Source of the DNA: Abyssibacter profundi
GTDB lineage: Bacteria; Pseudomonadota; Gammaproteobacteria; Nevskiales; OUC007
DNA: 64,000 nucleotides
Assembly: GCF_003151135.1 (NCBI RefSeq)
Contig: NZ_QEQK01000007.1
Span: 144,501 to 208,500 of the forward strand
Direction: 5' to 3'
Below the pieces are notes generated by a model, which did no database searches, was not told the origin of the DNA, and saw nothing but the letters and a program-made list of their open reading frames with translations. A program made the position numbers and the translations under genes. Positions 43,950 through 54,729 of this stretch are shown in pieces. Within the stretch, counting starts at the first letter, position 1; each line of letters begins with the position of its first letter.

Positions 43950-44002
43950 ATCGTCATCGAACGCCGGCCGCGCGACCGCGCGGTCTGGCCTTCGTGATTC
44001 AG

Positions 44003-44029
44003 CGGCCCGCCTTGTGCGGGCCGTTTTTG
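44003..44029 (+). terminator. Rho-independent terminator of the pnt operon
   Basis: CGGCCCGC (44003-44010) pairs with GCGGGCCG (44016-44023) around CTTGT and is followed by five T. It ends 13 bases before the stop of the convergent LysR gene. Confidence 0.88.
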
Positions 44030-44041
44030 TTGGAGCGGCGA

Positions 44042-44917
44042 TTAATTCGACGCCGGCCAGGCGATCTCCTCGGTCAGCTGGCCGCGGCGCTGAATCAGCC
44101 ACAGCGACATCTCCACGGTTGGCATTTCACCCAGGGTCACCAGTCCCATCTGCGCATGCACGGTATCCGTGATGACGGCGGGCACCGGCGCCGCGCCCAG
44201 ACCCGAGGCACAGAGGCTTTTCATCAGCGCAGTATCCACACAACGGGCCGCGATTCTTGGTCGCACCCCCCGCTGGTCCAACCATGCGGACACCTGACTG
44301 GACATGACCGACCCCGCCTGCCAGAGGATGACCGGTTGTTGATGCAAATTGGCGGGAAACCCATCGGCGAGTCGATCGGCGAATGCCTCGGTCGCAACCC
44401 AGGCCAGCGGCGAGCGGACCAGCAGCCGGATGTCGAAATCGCTCAGGTCACCGGTCGCGGGCTCTCGGTCGGACACGATGGCGTGCAGCCGACCCGACAG
44501 CAGCCGACCCTGCAAGTCGTCCAGCGGGCCCTCGACGAAAATGGCCTCGCGCCGCTGATCACCGCGGATCAACGCTGCCGTGCAAGCCACCGCCATCGAT
44601 TTGGGCACGCTGTCGGTGAGACCGATGCGGCAGGGAATGGCCAACTCGCCCGGATGGTCGACCAGCACAGCCGCCAGCTCATCCCCCAGCTCGAAGATCT
44701 GGCGTGCATAGGCCATCGCCATCGTCCCGGCATCCGTCGGCCTCAGCGCGCGGCCGTGGCGTGCCAGCAGTGGCTGCCCCGCCTGCGCCTCTAGCTGCTT
44801 GAGCTGCGCACTCACCGCCTGCGGAGAAACATGTAGCGCAACGGCAGCCGCCTGTACGGAACCCAGCCGAACCGTCTCGTAGAGGTAGCGAAGGTGCTTG
44901 TAATTAATCTGCGCCAC
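44042..44917 (-). CDS. NhaR-like LysR-family transcriptional regulator
   Basis: 291 residues from a GTG at 44917; a TTG at 44923 is also possible. The HTH INYKHLRYLYETVRLGSVQA, ALHVSPQAVSAQLKQLEAQA matches NhaR, which activates nhaA in response to sodium in E. coli. The C-terminal substrate domain is complete. A HPF-like gene and nhaA follow divergently, consistent with a NhaR role. Inference on the inducer. Confidence 0.8.
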   Translation of the reverse strand: MAQINYKHLRYLYETVRLGSVQAAAVALHVSPQAVSAQLKQLEAQAGQPLLARHGRALRPTDAGTMAMAYARQIFELGDELAAVLVDHPGELAIPCRIGLTDSVPKSMAVACTAALIRGDQRREAIFVEGPLDDLQGRLLSGRLHAIVSDREPATGDLSDFDIRLLVRSPLAWVATEAFADRLADGFPANLHQQPVILWQAGSVMSSQVSAWLDQRGVRPRIAARCVDTALMKSLCASGLGAAPVPAVITDTVHAQMGLVTLGEMPTVEMSLWLIQRRGQLTEEIAWPASN

Positions 44918-45013
44918 GATCAATCCATAGTTGATAAAGACTCAATATTAATGTGCTTTTATTTGATTTTTTGCTCCGTACACTGCTGAGTCTCATCCTG
45001 ATGAGGCATAGCC

Positions 45014-45388
45014 ATGCAACTGGATATACAGGCGCTGTACTTCGACATGACGCCCGGCATTGAGGGTGCGATCACCCGCGCAGCCGAGCAGCACATGGAC
45101 CGCTTCGACCATGCGGTCAAGAAGCTCACGGTGCGCGTCTATGACACCAACGGCCTCCGCGGGGGCGTGGATAAAGGCTGCCGCATCCATTCCGATCTCG
45201 GGCGGGCGCGGGCACTCGTGGTCGAAGCTGTCGATGAGGATCTTTACACGGCGATCAGCCGCGCCTTTGAAAAGGCCGAGCGGGCGACCAGCGGCCGGCT
45301 GCAGCGTCAGCGCAGACCCACCGACCGACGGCTACGCGCCACCATTCGCCGCGGGCTGGAGCCCATGGTCGCACAGCCCCTAGGCTAA
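45014..45388 (+). CDS. HPF/RaiA-type ribosome-associated protein
   Basis: 124 residues. Sigma-54-modulation/S30AE fold: QLDIQALYFDMTPGIEGAIT, AAEQHMDRFDHAVKKLTVRV, RARALVVEAVDEDLYTAISR and AFEKAERATSGRLQRQRR. Such proteins bind the decoding region of 30S subunits and cause hibernation. Here it stands between a NhaR-like regulator and nhaA, an unusual setting that suggests a salt- or pH-stress function. AT-rich DNA precedes it. Confidence 0.75.
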   Translation: MQLDIQALYFDMTPGIEGAITRAAEQHMDRFDHAVKKLTVRVYDTNGLRGGVDKGCRIHSDLGRARALVVEAVDEDLYTAISRAFEKAERATSGRLQRQRRPTDRRLRATIRRGLEPMVAQPLG

Positions 45389-45412
45389 ACCGCTCCCCAC
45401 ACCATCTACGAC

Positions 45413-45446
45413 AAGCCCCGCCCGGCCCCTGCGCCAGGCGGGGCTT
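45413..45446 (+). terminator. Hairpin between HPF-like gene and nhaA
   Basis: AAGCCCCGCC (45413-45422) and GGCGGGGCTT (45437-45446) form a perfect 10-bp stem around 14 bases. No strong T tract follows, so it may be a weak terminator or an attenuator-like element. Confidence 0.5.
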
Positions 45447-45462
45447 GCTGCCGAGAGCCCCC

Positions 45463-46632
45463 ATGAACTGGAAAGCCCTGCAATCCAACGAAGCCGCCCC
45501 CGGCATTTTGTTGATGATCTGCGCCGTCGCCGCGTTGCTCATCGCCAACTCGCCCCTCTCAGCGCTCTACGACCGCCTGATCCAGACCCCCCTGGCGATC
45601 ACCCTGGGCACGGCCGGACTGGAGAAACCGCTGCTGCTCTGGATCAACGATGGCCTGATGGCGTTGTTCTTCCTGCTGGTCGGCATCGAACTCAAGCACG
45701 AGTTGCTATTCGGGCACCTGCGTAACCGCCGACAAATCGCGCTACCCGCCGCGGCCGCTGTGGGCGGCATGCTGGTGCCCGCGGCTGTGTACCTGGCCTT
45801 CAACTGGCAGGACCCGATCGCGCGAAACGGCTGGGCGATCCCGGCGGCAACCGACATTGCCTTTGCACTGGCGATCTTCGCCATGCTGGCCAAGCATTTG
45901 CCCAGCGAGGTCAAAATCTTCCTCCTGGCAATCGCCATCATCGACGATATCGGCGCGATTCTGATTATCGCGCTGCTCTACACCGCAGACCTCAGCCTGT
46001 TGTCCCTGTTGATGGCCGCCGGCCTGACGGCCCTGCTGTTCCTGCTCAATCGAAAGGTTCAATCGTCCGCCGCCCCCTTCATCATCGTCGGGACCGTGTT
46101 GTGGGTAGCGACGCTAAAGTCCGGCGTCCACGCCACATTGGCCGGCGTGGTCGTCGGGTTAATGCTGCCCCTCCGGGTCAAGAGTACGGATCAGGTGTCT
46201 GCGGGCTATCGGGTGGAGCATGGCCTCAAGCCCTGGGTGTACTTCCTGGTGTTGCCCCTGTTCGCCCTGGCCAATGCCGGAGTCAACCTGCAGGGCACCG
46301 CCATCGGTGATGCCTTCACACCCGTCGTGCTGGGGATTGCAGCCGGCCTGCTGATTGGCAAGCCCCTCGGGGTCATGGGGGCGGTCTGGCTTGCTGAAAC
46401 CTGCCTACGGATCAAGCGCCCCGCCCTGCTCACCTGGCCGGTCGTGCTCGCCGTTGGCTGTCTCTGCGGGATTGGCTTCACCATGAGCCTGTTCATCGGG
46501 TCGCTGGCTTTCGAGCATGCGCCCTCCATGAATTTGGGGGACGAGCGGGTAGGCATTCTGGCCGGATCCACGCTGTCCGCTGCCCTGGCTGCATGCGTGC
46601 TCAGCCGGACCCGGGCCACCTCTTCCAACTAA
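45463..46632 (+). CDS. nhaA: Na+/H+ antiporter NhaA
   Basis: 389 residues, full length. Twelve or so TM helices. The unfolded-helix motif and transport-site residues are present: AIPAATDIAFALAIFAMLAK and FLLAIAIIDDIGAILIIALL with the paired Asp (IIDDI) that binds Na+/H+. The cytoplasmic start (MNWKALQSNEAAPGILLM) and the last helices match. It swaps external protons for internal Na+ or Li+, important at alkaline pH and high salt. Confidence 0.97.
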   Translation: MNWKALQSNEAAPGILLMICAVAALLIANSPLSALYDRLIQTPLAITLGTAGLEKPLLLWINDGLMALFFLLVGIELKHELLFGHLRNRRQIALPAAAAVGGMLVPAAVYLAFNWQDPIARNGWAIPAATDIAFALAIFAMLAKHLPSEVKIFLLAIAIIDDIGAILIIALLYTADLSLLSLLMAAGLTALLFLLNRKVQSSAAPFIIVGTVLWVATLKSGVHATLAGVVVGLMLPLRVKSTDQVSAGYRVEHGLKPWVYFLVLPLFALANAGVNLQGTAIGDAFTPVVLGIAAGLLIGKPLGVMGAVWLAETCLRIKRPALLTWPVVLAVGCLCGIGFTMSLFIGSLAFEHAPSMNLGDERVGILAGSTLSAALAACVLSRTRATSSN

Positions 46633-46648
46633 TCCATTTGCGACCATC

Positions 46649-47593
46649 ATGACACTCGACGCGCTCGCCAATCTCCCATTTCTGCTCTTCATCCTGGGTG
46701 CGCTGCTGGCTTTTTTCGGGCGGATGATCGCGATCCCGGTGGATGCGAACAGCTGGTTGGGGACTCTGCTCGTTCTGCTGCTGGGGCTTAAAGGCGGCGT
46801 CGGGCTGGCGCAGACGGAATCGCTCACCGTCGGCGGGGCGGCCATCATCGCCGGCCTGCTTGCGGCCGTGATCGTGCCCCTGCTCTGTCACCCGGTGCTG
46901 CGCAGGCTGGGCGGTTGGCCCCGGGAACTCTCTGCGGCCGCCGCCGGGCATTATGGTTCGATCAGCGTGGCCACGTTCGTCGCGATGATGGCCTACCTCG
47001 AGTCTCGTGGGGCGCAGGTCGACTCGGTCATGATTGCCGTGATGGCCCTCATGGAGGCGCCGGCACTGCTGATCGGATTGATGCTGGCCAGCCCACAGGG
47101 GGCCGACCACCGCAAGACATTCAAAGCGGCGCTGAGCAATGCCCCGATGCTCTTGCTGCTGGGCAGCATGGCCATTGGCTGGACCGTGCATTCGGTCCAG
47201 CCGGACGCAGCCGATGTGCAATCGATTCTGGGCTGGATACCCGGCCTGCTCAGCATCTACCTGTTGCTGCTGGGCCAGAAGGCTGGCCTGTTGCTGGCCC
47301 GTGAGCGCCTACCCGTCGGCGACCTGAGCTTTGCAATGGTCTGGCCATTCGTCAGTGGCACGCTGGCCTTTGGTATCGGCAGCCTGTTTGGGCTGGAGCC
47401 CACGAGTCTGGCCTTGCTCTGCATTCTGTCGGCGAGTGCAAGCTATATCGTTGCGCCCGCCGTGCTGTCACTGGCGATGCCCACGCTGGAACTGACCCGC
47501 ATCCAGGTCATGGTCATCGGTGTGACCTTCCCGGTGAACCTGCTGGTCGGCATTCCACTGTGGACCTGGGCGACTGGCGCCGCCGCTGGTTAG
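46649..47593 (+). CDS. SbtA-like sodium-dependent bicarbonate permease
   Basis: 314 residues, about ten TM helices. Matches the sodium-dependent bicarbonate transporter family (DUF897/SbtA): the repeated helix pairs with LAAVIVPLLCHPVLRRLGGW and the HYGSISVATFVAMMAYLE loop. It begins 16 bases after nhaA and is probably cotranscribed, so NhaA could maintain the Na+ gradient it needs. Substrate assignment is by similarity. Confidence 0.78.
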   Translation: MTLDALANLPFLLFILGALLAFFGRMIAIPVDANSWLGTLLVLLLGLKGGVGLAQTESLTVGGAAIIAGLLAAVIVPLLCHPVLRRLGGWPRELSAAAAGHYGSISVATFVAMMAYLESRGAQVDSVMIAVMALMEAPALLIGLMLASPQGADHRKTFKAALSNAPMLLLLGSMAIGWTVHSVQPDAADVQSILGWIPGLLSIYLLLLGQKAGLLLARERLPVGDLSFAMVWPFVSGTLAFGIGSLFGLEPTSLALLCILSASASYIVAPAVLSLAMPTLELTRIQVMVIGVTFPVNLLVGIPLWTWATGAAAG

Positions 47594-47639
47594 CGCGCCG
47601 TCGGCCCAGGGAAGCGCTGATCGATTCCCTCGATACCTG

Positions 47640-48611
47640 TCAGGCAGATGCCATGCTGTTCGGTAATCGCCGGGTCGGCGGCAGTCGCACCTGCACAGAA
47701 TTACCACCGCTGCGCTGCGCCTGCTCCAGCGCTGCCTCGGCCATCGACATCAGACGATGCACGGACAGCTCATCGATCTGAGCCTCGTGCTCGATGGATG
47801 TCAGGCCGACGGAAACCGTGACGCGACGTTGCGAGATGCCGCAGGGCATGGCCGCGACGGCCTGACGAATCGACTCGGCATGCCGCTGCGCCTTCTCATC
47901 CTGCATGCCGCGCAGCGCCACGGCGATGCGCCCGCCACCGAAATGGTAGCTGGTATCGCCCGAGCGCCGCGTCCGCTCCGAAATAACGCGCGCAAGGGCC
48001 TGCAGCAGGTCTTCCACGTCACCGTCCTGATCAAAGGCGTCAAACTCATCAACGCCGATGAGCAACAGACTGAATGGCAACCGGGCGCGCAGCCCACGAC
48101 CCCACTCGCTGACGAACTGTTCCTCGAACAGGCGGCGAGTGAACAAATCGGTTGCCGGGTCACGCACGCTGCGGTGCCGCATCAACAGGGCGTCTTCGAT
48201 GAGGCGCGCACCATCCACCAAGGCACGCCGAACGACGGGTGTACCCAGATCAAGCCGGCGCGAGGAATACACGCTCAGAACCCCCACCAGTGCACCGGTG
48301 GCGTCAACAACGGGCTCTCCTGCGCAGACCTGCGCCAGCGGCACACGTGGTCCGGCGGATTCGCTCGTCGAGTCCGGCGCCCAGATCACGGTTTCTTCGG
48401 CCTGCCGCACGCGCTGACTCAGCGCGTGCTCGGGATCAATGCTGGCCACCCCGCCTCCGTGTGCGGCCGCGATCATCCATTGAGGCCCCTCGGCCATCGT
48501 GAGCGATGCGTATTCGCAGCCGGTCGCCAGCGCCGTCATACGAACCACGCGCTCAAGCGTGAAGTCTTTGTGCGCGTTGCCCCCGATTTGTGCCTCCGGT
48601 TGGCTCTGCAT
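47640..48611 (-). CDS. GAF domain protein with degenerate GGDEF domain
   Basis: 323 residues from the ATG at 48611; the frame extends to 48677 without family support. N-terminal GAF domain (VRMTALATGCEYASLTMAEG, then VVDATGALVGVLSVYSSRRL). The GGDEF domain has lost its catalytic sequence: HFGGGRIAV in place of GGDEF, so cyclase activity is not expected. The RxxD inhibitory-site residues are still there (RSGD, five residues before the GGG). It may sense cyclic di-GMP. Confidence 0.8.
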   Translation of the reverse strand: MQSQPEAQIGGNAHKDFTLERVVRMTALATGCEYASLTMAEGPQWMIAAAHGGGVASIDPEHALSQRVRQAEETVIWAPDSTSESAGPRVPLAQVCAGEPVVDATGALVGVLSVYSSRRLDLGTPVVRRALVDGARLIEDALLMRHRSVRDPATDLFTRRLFEEQFVSEWGRGLRARLPFSLLLIGVDEFDAFDQDGDVEDLLQALARVISERTRRSGDTSYHFGGGRIAVALRGMQDEKAQRHAESIRQAVAAMPCGISQRRVTVSVGLTSIEHEAQIDELSVHRLMSMAEAALEQAQRSGGNSVQVRLPPTRRLPNSMASA

Positions 48612-48855
48612 TACGGCCACTCCCTCGTTTGGTCCCTGGCTCCATCGTGACCGCTGCCCTGCTCGCAGCGCAACCATGCGTAGGACAGCTAACCAATCCG
48701 CTGGCCGAGCGTTTACTCTCTGGACATGGATGGGATTTATCTCCCTTTACCCGGCGGATTTCAAGGCTCGTTGAATGGTGTAGGGTCCGGTGAAACCGGC
48801 TTTCCCCCTTTGGACCCCTCCGTGCTTTCGCATCGAGTTCGTTAAAACATCACCG

Positions 48856-50025
48856 ATGCCCAAACGCCTGCCTCAGTGGTTCCAAACGCATTTTCTGCAG
48901 ATCGACGCGGATCGGGAACACGCGTTCAAGCGTTCGTTTCTGCACTCGGGCCGTGGCCGCCGCGAGCTCGGCATCGTGCTGTTGCTGCTCCTTGTCCCCA
49001 CGCTACCTTGGTACGGCCCGCACCTACTTGCCATACCCGAGTCGGTGTTCGCCGCCCTGCCCGTCGCGCTTCAGTGGGCAAGCCTGATCACCGCTTTGCT
49101 TGCGCTGGTGGTCAACCGCCTCGCCCGCGGTCATCTGCGCGTGGTGCTGACCGTGGCGACGATGAATCTGGTCGCCATCATCTTTCTCACCGCACTGCGC
49201 GTGGTGGGCAGCCACCAGGGGTTCGAGATTCCGATTGCGATTCAAGCCACCCTGGTTGTGGGTGTCGGCGTGATGGCCGGCATGACCGCCCGCCACAATC
49301 TGGTGTTCTTCGGTACCGTGCTGCTGGGTATGACCGTGGCCGAGCTGTGGTGGGTGGAGAACCCCAGCAACCAAGTCATCGAAATCTACGCCATTGTGAT
49401 GATCAGCGGAATCAGCCTGATCGGCGCGCTGGCTGTGGAACATGCCGCGCGCGGCGCCTGGAAAGATCAGGCCTCGCTGGCCTACCGCGCCAACTACGAT
49501 GATCTCACCGGCCTGGCCACGCGGGCATTTTTTAGAGAACAAATCGAGTCGCTGTTAAGAGCCGCCCGCCGCGACGAGCGACCGGTGGCGCTGGCCATTG
49601 TCGATATCGACCATTTCAAGGCCATCAACGACACCCACGGGCATCTGGTCGGTGATGAGGTCATCCGTAGTGTCGCCGAGGAAATACGCCTGCTCTGCCG
49701 CCGATCCACCGATCTGGCCGCACGATTGGGAGGAGAGGAATATGCGCTGTTTCTCTACGGTGCGGATGCGCCCGATGCCCAGCGACTGCTCACCGAACTG
49801 CTCGATCGCATCCGCGCCTTGCGGTTTCACGACACCAACGGCCGCCCCCTGTCCCTCAAAACCACGGCAAGCTGTGGTCTGGTGACCGCGCCGCCGGGCA
49901 TGACGGTGACGCGCAACGGCCTGCTGCTGTCTGCCGACAGTCAGCTCTATGTGGCCAAGCGGTCCGGCCGCGATCGGTTGAGCTGGGAACTCTACAAAGG
50001 TGAAACCATCAGCCACACCCGCTAG
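48856..50025 (+). CDS. Membrane diguanylate cyclase (GGDEF)
   Basis: 389 residues. About six TM helices in the first 200 residues (ELGIVLLLLLVPTLPWYGPH onward), then a GGDEF domain with LGGEEYALF as active site and RSTD as RxxD inhibitory site. Other conserved parts: DDLTGLATRAFFREQIESLL and VDIDHFKAINDTHGHLVGDE. Should be catalytically competent. Divergent from the degenerate GAF-GGDEF gene. Confidence 0.93.
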   Translation: MPKRLPQWFQTHFLQIDADREHAFKRSFLHSGRGRRELGIVLLLLLVPTLPWYGPHLLAIPESVFAALPVALQWASLITALLALVVNRLARGHLRVVLTVATMNLVAIIFLTALRVVGSHQGFEIPIAIQATLVVGVGVMAGMTARHNLVFFGTVLLGMTVAELWWVENPSNQVIEIYAIVMISGISLIGALAVEHAARGAWKDQASLAYRANYDDLTGLATRAFFREQIESLLRAARRDERPVALAIVDIDHFKAINDTHGHLVGDEVIRSVAEEIRLLCRRSTDLAARLGGEEYALFLYGADAPDAQRLLTELLDRIRALRFHDTNGRPLSLKTTASCGLVTAPPGMTVTRNGLLLSADSQLYVAKRSGRDRLSWELYKGETISHTR

Positions 50026-50040
50026 GGAAGCCCCCGACGA

Positions 50041-51174
50041 CTAGCGCGGCTCCACCACCACCCGATCGCCGCCCTGCTGCCGGGCCAATGCCAGCGCATG
50101 CTCCGCTTGCAGCAGGACGCGCTCCAGTCGGTCCGACTGGCGTCCCTCGTAATCGCTGATGCCGATGCTTGCGGTCAGCACGTCACCCTCCAACGGAATC
50201 ATGCGCAGACGGTATTGCAGCCGGGCGGCGTGCTGGGCGGCGGATTCACGGGAGGTGTCGGGCAGCAACATGACAAATCGCTGCCCAGCCCAGCGGGCGG
50301 CCAGATCGGAACTGCGTGCCTGCGTATGCATGACCTCACCGATAGCACGGAGCAACGCGTCGGTCGCGTCCGGGCCCAGCCGGTCGGCGAGCCCGTCGAA
50401 CTGATCCAGCTCGATGGTCATGACCGCCAGCGGGTGACCATTGCGTCGCGCCTGGTTCAGACAGCGCTCAGCCTGATGCATCAGCTCACTGCGATTCAGC
50501 AAGCCGGTCAATGCATCGGTCACGGCCAGGCCGGCCAATGCGGCATTCGCCTGTTCCAAGGCCTCAGATCGGGCATCGAGATCGGCACCTAGCGCGTCCA
50601 GTACATCCAGCCGCTCCATGACCAAGGCGGTGAACTCGGCCAGCGTGCCCAGCAGCCAGCGCTCGTGTGGCCGGGGTGTCCGCGGCGTCGACCAATAGCA
50701 GCCGATCGCGCCCACAGGCGCGTCAAGCTGGATCGGGGTCACCACCAGCCCGCGGACGAAGGTGGAGCGGTAAAGCGTCTGCGGCACCCGATCATCGGCA
50801 TGCGCATCGGGAATGATCACGACCTCGCCCTGCAGCATGGCCCAACCGCTGACGCAGGCCCTGAGTGGAAATCGCCGCCCTTTCCAAAGCGGCGCGACCG
50901 CGTCTTCCTCGACGTAGCAGCATTGGCCCTCTGCGCGCATGACAAAGCAAGCACCCTGCGCATCCAGGCAGGTACGCACCGATCGACAGACCGCGGTTTG
51001 CAGGTCGGCCAATGTTGGGGCCTGGAACAAGCGGGGTACGGCCTGCAGCAAGGTCTGCATGGATCGCAGGCAGGCGGGCTGATCGGCCGCCGGCACCTCC
51101 GGTGGCATCAACCGAGTTGGACTGGCAGCGACGGTTTTCAATCCCACCTCCCCGCGCGCGTTGGCTGCGTCCAT
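50041..51174 (-). CDS. GAF domain protein with degenerate GGDEF domain
   Basis: 377 residues. N-terminal GAF-like region (residues 35-190), then a GGDEF domain: VTDALTGLLNRSELMHQAER and IELDQFDGLADRLGPDATDA. The active site is WAGQRFVML, so the GGDEF motif is lost, but RSSD (RxxD) remains five residues before it. Predicted to bind rather than make cyclic di-GMP. It is 16 bases from the convergent cyclase gene. Confidence 0.8.
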   Translation of the reverse strand: MDAANARGEVGLKTVAASPTRLMPPEVPAADQPACLRSMQTLLQAVPRLFQAPTLADLQTAVCRSVRTCLDAQGACFVMRAEGQCCYVEEDAVAPLWKGRRFPLRACVSGWAMLQGEVVIIPDAHADDRVPQTLYRSTFVRGLVVTPIQLDAPVGAIGCYWSTPRTPRPHERWLLGTLAEFTALVMERLDVLDALGADLDARSEALEQANAALAGLAVTDALTGLLNRSELMHQAERCLNQARRNGHPLAVMTIELDQFDGLADRLGPDATDALLRAIGEVMHTQARSSDLAARWAGQRFVMLLPDTSRESAAQHAARLQYRLRMIPLEGDVLTASIGISDYEGRQSDRLERVLLQAEHALALARQQGGDRVVVEPR

Positions 51175-53428: not shown

Positions 53429-53535
53429 TCGCGAAAGATGCGGCGGCCTGCGTGCCAGCGCAAGTCTGCGCACCCCACGGTTCGCCGCAGTAGGAGTCCG
53501 TGCGTGGTGAATCCCGCTTCGGCGATACTGGCCGC

Positions 53536-54729
53536 ATGCACCTCGACCCGCTCATGCTGAAACTGGTCGCCGCGCTGCTGGTTATTCTGGTGGTGGGTTT
53601 GGGGTTGCGTATCTTGAAACAGCCCCATGTCGTCGGTTATCTGCTCGCGGGCGTCATCCTCGGACCGCATGGACTAAGCCTGGTTGCCGACCAGCATGCG
53701 GTCGCGCGCCTGGGCGAGTTCGGGGTGATCTTCCTGCTCTTCTTCATCGGGATGGAGGCTTCACCCAAGCGGCTGATCGCCAACTGGCGGGTCACCGTCA
53801 TTGGGACTTTCATCCAGATCAGCGCATCCGTCGGCATGATCTGGATCGTCGGCGCCATGGTCGGCTGGTCCATCGCGCGCATCGTCCTGCTGGGCTTTGT
53901 CATCAGCCTGTCCAGCACGGCGGTGGTGCTCAACTATCTGCACGACTCCGGGCGGCTGCGCACCAAAGTCGGCGAGGACTCCATCGGCGTGCTGCTGGCA
54001 CAAGACCTGGCCATCATCCCCATGCTGGTGGTCATCGGCATTCTCGGCGGCGGGCAGCCCGACCCGCACACCATCTCGCTGCAGGCCATCGGCATCGTGC
54101 TGGTCGCCGGGTTACTCGTGTGGATGGTTCGCAGCGACCGTGTCCGGCTGCCGTTGGGCGCCCGGTTGCGGGCAGATAAGGAACTGCAGGTCTTCGTCGC
54201 GGTGCTGATCTGTCTGGGCCTGGCCCTCATTACCGGTCTGTTTGACCTGTCGACCGCGCTGGGTGCATTTCTGGCTGGCATGCTGGTGGGCGCGGCCAAG
54301 GAAACCCACTGGGTTCATCAGCGACTGGAACCGTTTCGTGTGGTCTTCGTCGCGATATTCTTTGTCTCGATCGGCATGCTGCTCGACCTCGGATTCGTTC
54401 TTGAGCACTGGGCCATGGTGGTAGCGCTGCTCCTCACCGTGCTGGTCACCAAGACCGGCATCAATGCGGTCATGTTCCGCTCGCTGGGCGACACTTGGCG
54501 GCATGCCGTTCTGGCTGGCGCCGTACTTGCGCAGATCGGCGAGTTCAGCTTTGTGCTGGCTGCAGCCGGTGCTCGCACAAACCTGATTACCGACTTCGCG
54601 TACCAGGTCGCAATCTCGGTCATCGCGCTCAGCCTGCTGGTGAGCCCGGCGTGGATTGGAGGCACCCTGCGACTGCTGAAGCGGAACAAGGCCAGGGCGG
54701 CGCAACGGGCAGCAAACGCCCAAAATTGA
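53536..54729 (+). CDS. CPA2-family monovalent cation/H+ antiporter (KefB/GerN-like)
   Basis: 397 residues, about 12 TM helices. Na+/H+-exchanger domain of the CPA2 type: QPHVVGYLLAGVILGPHGLS, GEFGVIFLLFFIGMEASPKR, VISLSSTAVVLNYLHDSG and GEDSIGVLLAQDLAIIPMLV, which holds the cation-site QD/A pattern of Kef/GerN. There is no C-terminal TrkA-N/RCK domain, so it is a short form. Could move K+ or Na+ against protons. Confidence 0.88.
   Translation: MHLDPLMLKLVAALLVILVVGLGLRILKQPHVVGYLLAGVILGPHGLSLVADQHAVARLGEFGVIFLLFFIGMEASPKRLIANWRVTVIGTFIQISASVGMIWIVGAMVGWSIARIVLLGFVISLSSTAVVLNYLHDSGRLRTKVGEDSIGVLLAQDLAIIPMLVVIGILGGGQPDPHTISLQAIGIVLVAGLLVWMVRSDRVRLPLGARLRADKELQVFVAVLICLGLALITGLFDLSTALGAFLAGMLVGAAKETHWVHQRLEPFRVVFVAIFFVSIGMLLDLGFVLEHWAMVVALLLTVLVTKTGINAVMFRSLGDTWRHAVLAGAVLAQIGEFSFVLAAAGARTNLITDFAYQVAISVIALSLLVSPAWIGGTLRLLKRNKARAAQRAANAQN

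Follow-up and report, generated by a model that had tools for sequence, protein, structure and literature searches.

Two degenerate GAF-GGDEF proteins that flank a diguanylate cyclase in Abyssibacter profundi: candidate c-di-GMP receptors of separate descent

In Abyssibacter profundi, a gene for a diguanylate cyclase (P0002) lies between two genes whose products (P0001 and P0003) have lost the GGDEF motif and kept an I-site-like RxxD motif. This arrangement raises the question of whether the two degenerate proteins are c-di-GMP receptors, and whether they serve the cyclase that they flank. The locus was analysed within a stretch of 64,000 nucleotides (the window, to which coordinates refer unless another stretch is named). 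P0001 (47640–48677, minus strand; 345 aa) was recognised from its open reading frame and Pfam as a soluble protein with a GAF-like and a degenerate GGDEF domain. P0003 (50041–51174, minus strand; 377 aa) is a soluble protein composed of a GAF domain, a long helix and a degenerate GGDEF domain, as judged from its reading frame, Pfam and AlphaFold2. P0002 (48790–50025, plus strand; 411 aa) is a membrane diguanylate cyclase with six hydrophobic segments and an intact GGDEF domain, and translation may begin further downstream than the annotated GTG. The Pfam GGDEF model matched all three proteins (E 2.1e-19 for P0001, 7.4e-37 for P0002 and 4.5e-32 for P0003); the GAF match was clear in P0003 (1.7e-10) and below the cut-off in P0001 (E 0.024). 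A hydropathy scan of P0001 and P0003 found no hydrophobic segment above threshold and predicted no transmembrane helix (top 19-residue values of 1.33 and 1.24, compared with 2.39 in P0002). GC content by codon position was the same in both degenerate frames as in the adjoining genes; the frames therefore look like genes in use.

GGDEF is replaced by GGGRI in P0001 (47925–47939, minus strand) and by AGQRF in P0003 (50275–50289, minus strand), as the first-pass annotation had stated, and the damage goes further. The position of the metal-binding Asp (PleD D327) is occupied by Gly in P0001 and by Glu in P0003; neither protein has the substrate-binding Asn (N335), and P0001 also lacks D344. P0002 has kept the metal Asp, the substrate Asn and the active-site motif GGEEY (49729–49743, plus strand), which is also GGEEY in both congeners; together with its RSTD I-site (49702–49713, plus strand), this agrees with the earlier description of an intact cyclase between the two degenerate proteins. 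The spacing of the I-site-like motifs RSGD of P0001 (47955–47966, minus strand) and RSSD of P0003 (50305–50316, minus strand) had also been read correctly: each of the pairs RSGD/GGGRI, RSTD/GGEEY and RSSD/AGQRF occurs once, with a constant gap of five residues. P0001 kept one of the six catalytic positions and 14 of 25 other conserved columns, and P0003 two of six and 18 of 25. Pooling the two proteins (3/12 versus 32/50 kept, P 0.02) showed heavier loss at catalytic positions than at other conserved columns. As shown by these broken active sites, P0001 and P0003 are predicted to be catalytically dead GAF-GGDEF proteins.

Aligned to PleD, P0003 keeps the residues at R359, D362 and R390 (PleD numbering). 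The last of these, the accessory I-site Arg (R794 in SgmT), is present in the AARLQ segment of P0003 (50215–50229, minus strand) and is replaced by Ser in the AESIR segment of P0001 (47865–47879, minus strand). This residue is a weak discriminator, because in this alignment the Arg is seen in only 10 of the 23 intact RxxD domains of the same genome and is missing from the other 13.

The AlphaFold2 model of P0003 (mean pLDDT 90.8) comprises the GAF domain, a 50-residue helix and the GGDEF domain, with GAF and helix confident; in the model of P0001 (mean 69.5) the GGDEF domain alone was confident. Among the best 50 of 99 and the best 50 of 524 fold-search matches (E up to 0.001), the best of those listed were canonical cyclases, some of them c-di-GMP-bound. 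The GAF-GGDEF cyclase Dcsbis (PA2771; 4zmu) ranked third among the matches listed for P0003, over the full length; it shares the GAF–helix–GGDEF layout but, unlike dead P0003, is a highly active cyclase by its title. PelD was not among these best 50 of either set, although lower ranks may hold it.

How do the two proteins compare with known receptors that carry degenerate GGDEF domains? PelD has a GAF domain, and the sensor domains of PopA and CdgA differ from those of P0001 and P0003. The two proteins had been described as being of the PelD type, and this holds loosely, in that they combine GAF with a degenerate GGDEF domain and RxxD. The degenerate GGDEF domain with RxxD is shared with PelD of Pseudomonas aeruginosa and Bacillus cereus, in which RxxD is described as binding c-di-GMP (PMC7112168). 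A closer equation with PelD was rejected: no PelD-named family was matched in Pfam (E up to 0.1) or NCBIfam (E up to 0.01), PelD was absent from the PDB sequence matches, no N-terminal membrane helix is predicted in either protein, and no pel gene that would mark a pel operon was found among the ten proteins scanned between 44042 and 54729. SgmT of Myxococcus xanthus is reported as a cytoplasmic protein with a GAF and a degenerate GGDEF domain (GGGVF, RHPD) whose I-site binds c-di-GMP (PMC3509222). P0001 and P0003 share this cytoplasmic combination of GAF, degenerate GGDEF and RxxD; they lack the kinase domain of SgmT, a hybrid histidine kinase that also has a receiver domain. PopA of Caulobacter and CdgA of Bdellovibrio, like P0001 and P0003, have a degenerate A-site and a retained RxxD, and are presented as c-di-GMP receptors with an intact I-site (PMC3509222, PMC3974145). 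The features of the PopA/SgmT class that were found in both P0001 and P0003 are the degenerate A-site and RxxD five residues before it. The receptor idea is plausible and of a known kind, and P0001 and P0003 may bind c-di-GMP.

Close orthologues of P0001 or P0003 were found in neither congener genome. In a search of 60 relatives and the own genome, the two congeners gave no full-length match to P0003, and matched P0001 at 30–39% only; the full-length P0001 matches were members of an intact-cyclase family (33% and 31%) and one degenerate protein (L162, 30%), which matches proteins other than P0001 better. Class-wide searches (369 genomes each) returned no close orthologue either, a silence that is weak given the strict limits and the five candidates at most per genome. 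P0001 is most closely related to GAF cyclases in which GGEEF is intact and accompanied by an RAGD-type motif; its broken cousins are L158 (DDTRF, RPGD) and L162 (EDQRF, PNRD, in which the R is lost). Of the seven P0003-type GAF + GGDEF proteins among the loci examined, the A-site is intact or nearly so in six, and six have RxxD, the exception being L003 (PPDA); other relatives of the P0003 GAF domain mostly lack a GGDEF domain in the same frame. The one dead P0003-like homologue, from Richelia sinica (L106), is 37% identical over P0003 residues 36–303 and combines a broken A-site (EGNKF) with RTSD and the accessory Arg. It differs from P0003 in being cyanobacterial and in another gene neighbourhood, and is a homologue by sequence only. 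P0001 and P0003 come from different GAF-GGDEF lineages, and are therefore not the product of a local duplication. Independent broken members of the P0001 GAF-cyclase clade in G001 and G050 (L184 4536–5720, minus strand, EDQRF; L185 5942–6979, plus strand, DDTRF) suggest that decay has recurred within the clade.

RxxD at this place is not to be expected of random sequence, yet the fair null hypothesis is descent, under which R and D were assumed to decay like other well-conserved columns. In the own genome, 45 GGDEF matches correspond to 45 distinct domains, 29 intact and 16 broken; RxxD was present in 23 of the intact and 5 of the broken ones, 4.8 of the latter being expected to keep both residues. 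The expected probability of keeping R and D was 0.52 for P0003 and 0.31 for P0001, or 0.16 jointly, and the I-site residues of the two proteins did not stand out from other conserved columns (P 0.19). RxxD in P0001 and P0003 alone is therefore unsurprising and constitutes weak evidence.

A survey of five genomes, comprising the own genome and the low-scoring GGDEF domains (below about 126 bits) of four more, so that high-scoring degenerate domains would be missed, gave 58 broken domains in 32 clusters, eight fragments or contig-edge pieces being omitted. In stand-alone clusters (no EAL), RxxD was kept in 8 of 13 when 3.2 were expected (P 0.003), a count that becomes 7/12 without the partly or poorly aligned L104. 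In EAL-fused clusters it was kept in 2 of 19 when 5.6 were expected (P 0.03), L165 being counted in the EAL-fused cluster of its relatives. The two classes differ (Fisher 0.005), in a split that was chosen after seeing the own-genome table and then repeated with four more genomes, and with relatedness of clusters handled by a 42% identity cut alone. The excess in the stand-alone class adds weight to the receptor reading. A Xanthomonas survey reads similarly: it reports a conserved I-site in several single-GGDEF proteins for which it does not list a conserved active-site motif, and a degenerate I-site in most GGDEF-EAL proteins (PMC6637768). Another source counts RxxD in 44% of GGDEF proteins (PMC3974145). 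In our survey set, 96 of 111 intact domains had RxxD, so that the ancestors of the degenerate domains very probably had it too.

We give an even chance to the view that P0001 and P0003 are separately derived, dead GAF-GGDEF proteins that act as I-site c-di-GMP receptors on either side of an older, independent cyclase. The GAF domains would be ligand sensors. The dead GGDEF domain, which in P0003 is most likely dimeric via the long helix, would bind intercalated c-di-GMP at the I-site. Neither protein has an output domain, which, like the loss of R in the degenerate P0001 cousin L162, counts against this view; the signal would be passed on by protein contacts with a target, in line with what is described for SgmT (PMC3509222) and PelD (PMC7112168). 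With 45 GGDEF matches in the genome, the input would be the general c-di-GMP pool and not a private signal of P0002. From the aligned residues, receptor function appears likelier for P0003 than for P0001, since R, D and the accessory Arg are kept in P0003 while P0001 has Ser.

The main competing explanation, to which we give a lower though still substantial probability, is that RxxD is a leftover of descent, and that P0001 and P0003 are GAF-driven pseudoenzymes that act by contacts, for example by forming heterodimers with cyclases, without binding c-di-GMP. It accounts for the own-genome retention at the expected level and for the joint value obtained for the two proteins, and it agrees with the frequency of RxxD in intact domains and with the missing accessory Arg of P0001. 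It does not account for the retention beyond expectation in the stand-alone class, or for a small family, described below, that retains its motif in all ten members at low identity; moreover, SgmT and PelD show, in the sources cited above, that such sites can bind. That P0001, P0003 or both still make c-di-GMP despite an odd motif is highly improbable. VCA0965 is reported to be active with AGDEF, but it keeps D, E and F (PMC3974145), whereas P0001 and P0003 have changed at both acidic positions of the motif and also at the metal Asp and the substrate Asn.

The first-pass annotation had also suggested that the three genes form a local signal-and-receptor module, in which P0001 and P0003 read the c-di-GMP made by P0002. 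The genes are adjacent: a gap of 112 bases (48678–48789) separates the divergent P0001 and P0002, and P0002 and P0003 converge with stops 15 bases apart. Three genes in such divergent and convergent orientations are not one operon. P0003 runs in the same direction as an esterase–kynureninase pair and lies 88 bases downstream of it, and a promoter scan found no sigma-70-like promoter in the region, the 112-base gap included. Both congeners have the order pntA–pntB–cyclase–esterase–kynureninase, with neither P0001 nor P0003 at the locus; their P0002 orthologues are 61.8% and 61.1% identical to P0002, and 75.6% to each other. The pntB–cyclase gaps are 142 and 139 bases and the cyclase–esterase gaps 411 and 6 bases. 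In the window, the pntB–cyclase interval instead contains P0001 and the genes for LysR, an S30AE/HPF-like protein, nhaA and an Sbt_1 transporter, and the cyclase–esterase interval contains P0003. Because the two congeners are sister taxa, a gain on the side of A. profundi and a loss on theirs are equally short explanations among the three genomes; either way, the cyclase was kept without the supposed receptors. The module was therefore not supported and is improbable, and, judged by gene order, the three genes do not resemble a long-established and fixed signalling unit.

Other differences were noted in this neighbourhood. The stretch 43950–48789, with genes for LysR, the S30AE/HPF-like protein, nhaA and Sbt_1 (bicarbonate transporter superfamily), is missing there in both congeners, and together with P0001 it may represent one insertion. 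A terminator-like hairpin was read by eye 3' of pntB in both congeners. Between kynureninase and priA, the window has a CPA2-type antiporter gene (53500–54729), which is also present in G002 (L062) and absent from G001 (L061).

Conservation of RxxD had been named at the outset as a check on the receptor reading, and it was encountered in another protein. The same genome encodes a 197-aa degenerate GGDEF protein (G000:C1:164167-164757; L070 4165–4758, minus strand). RR(A/G)DF is present in each of the ten best-matching members of its family that were examined, which come from nine genomes of four families; all ten also have Arg where GGDEF has its first Gly, and the other A-site positions vary among them. 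Their frames are of 190–254 aa (L070, L067 8280–8915, L066 8150–8911, L182 3171–3773 and 4171–4806, and L186–L190). The RRxDF protein adjoins an active GAF cyclase in all three genus members; no cyclase neighbour was seen beyond the genus in the stretches inspected, and comparison of neighbours revealed no common partner gene. In two genomes of one family it adjoins a CoA-transferase. On the strength of the invariant motif, the RRxDF protein is a better candidate c-di-GMP receptor than P0001 or P0003.

A broader proposal, which we hold tentatively and consider rather unlikely, is that stand-alone dead GGDEF proteins of this order form a wide and mostly undescribed set of I-site receptors with many separate origins from active GAF cyclases; P0001 and P0003 would be young members, and the RRxDF family an old and fixed one, its invariant Arg possibly lying in a rebuilt c-di-GMP site. 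If the receptor reading is true, cyclase decay that spares the product site would be a repeated route to c-di-GMP receptors in this genome, and whether a degenerate domain is stand-alone or EAL-fused would be a simple rule for choosing which to assay. If it is wrong, RxxD retained by a dead GGDEF protein does not by itself signify binding. Whichever holds, adjacency to a cyclase should not be taken here for a module.

Finally, three stand-alone degenerate GGDEF clusters were common to the three genus members, with I-site letters unchanged across the genus: RPYD (L083/L152/L153), DERA (L094/L137/L141) and RSNE (L102/L167/L169), the last of which (R..E) is a candidate variant I-site.
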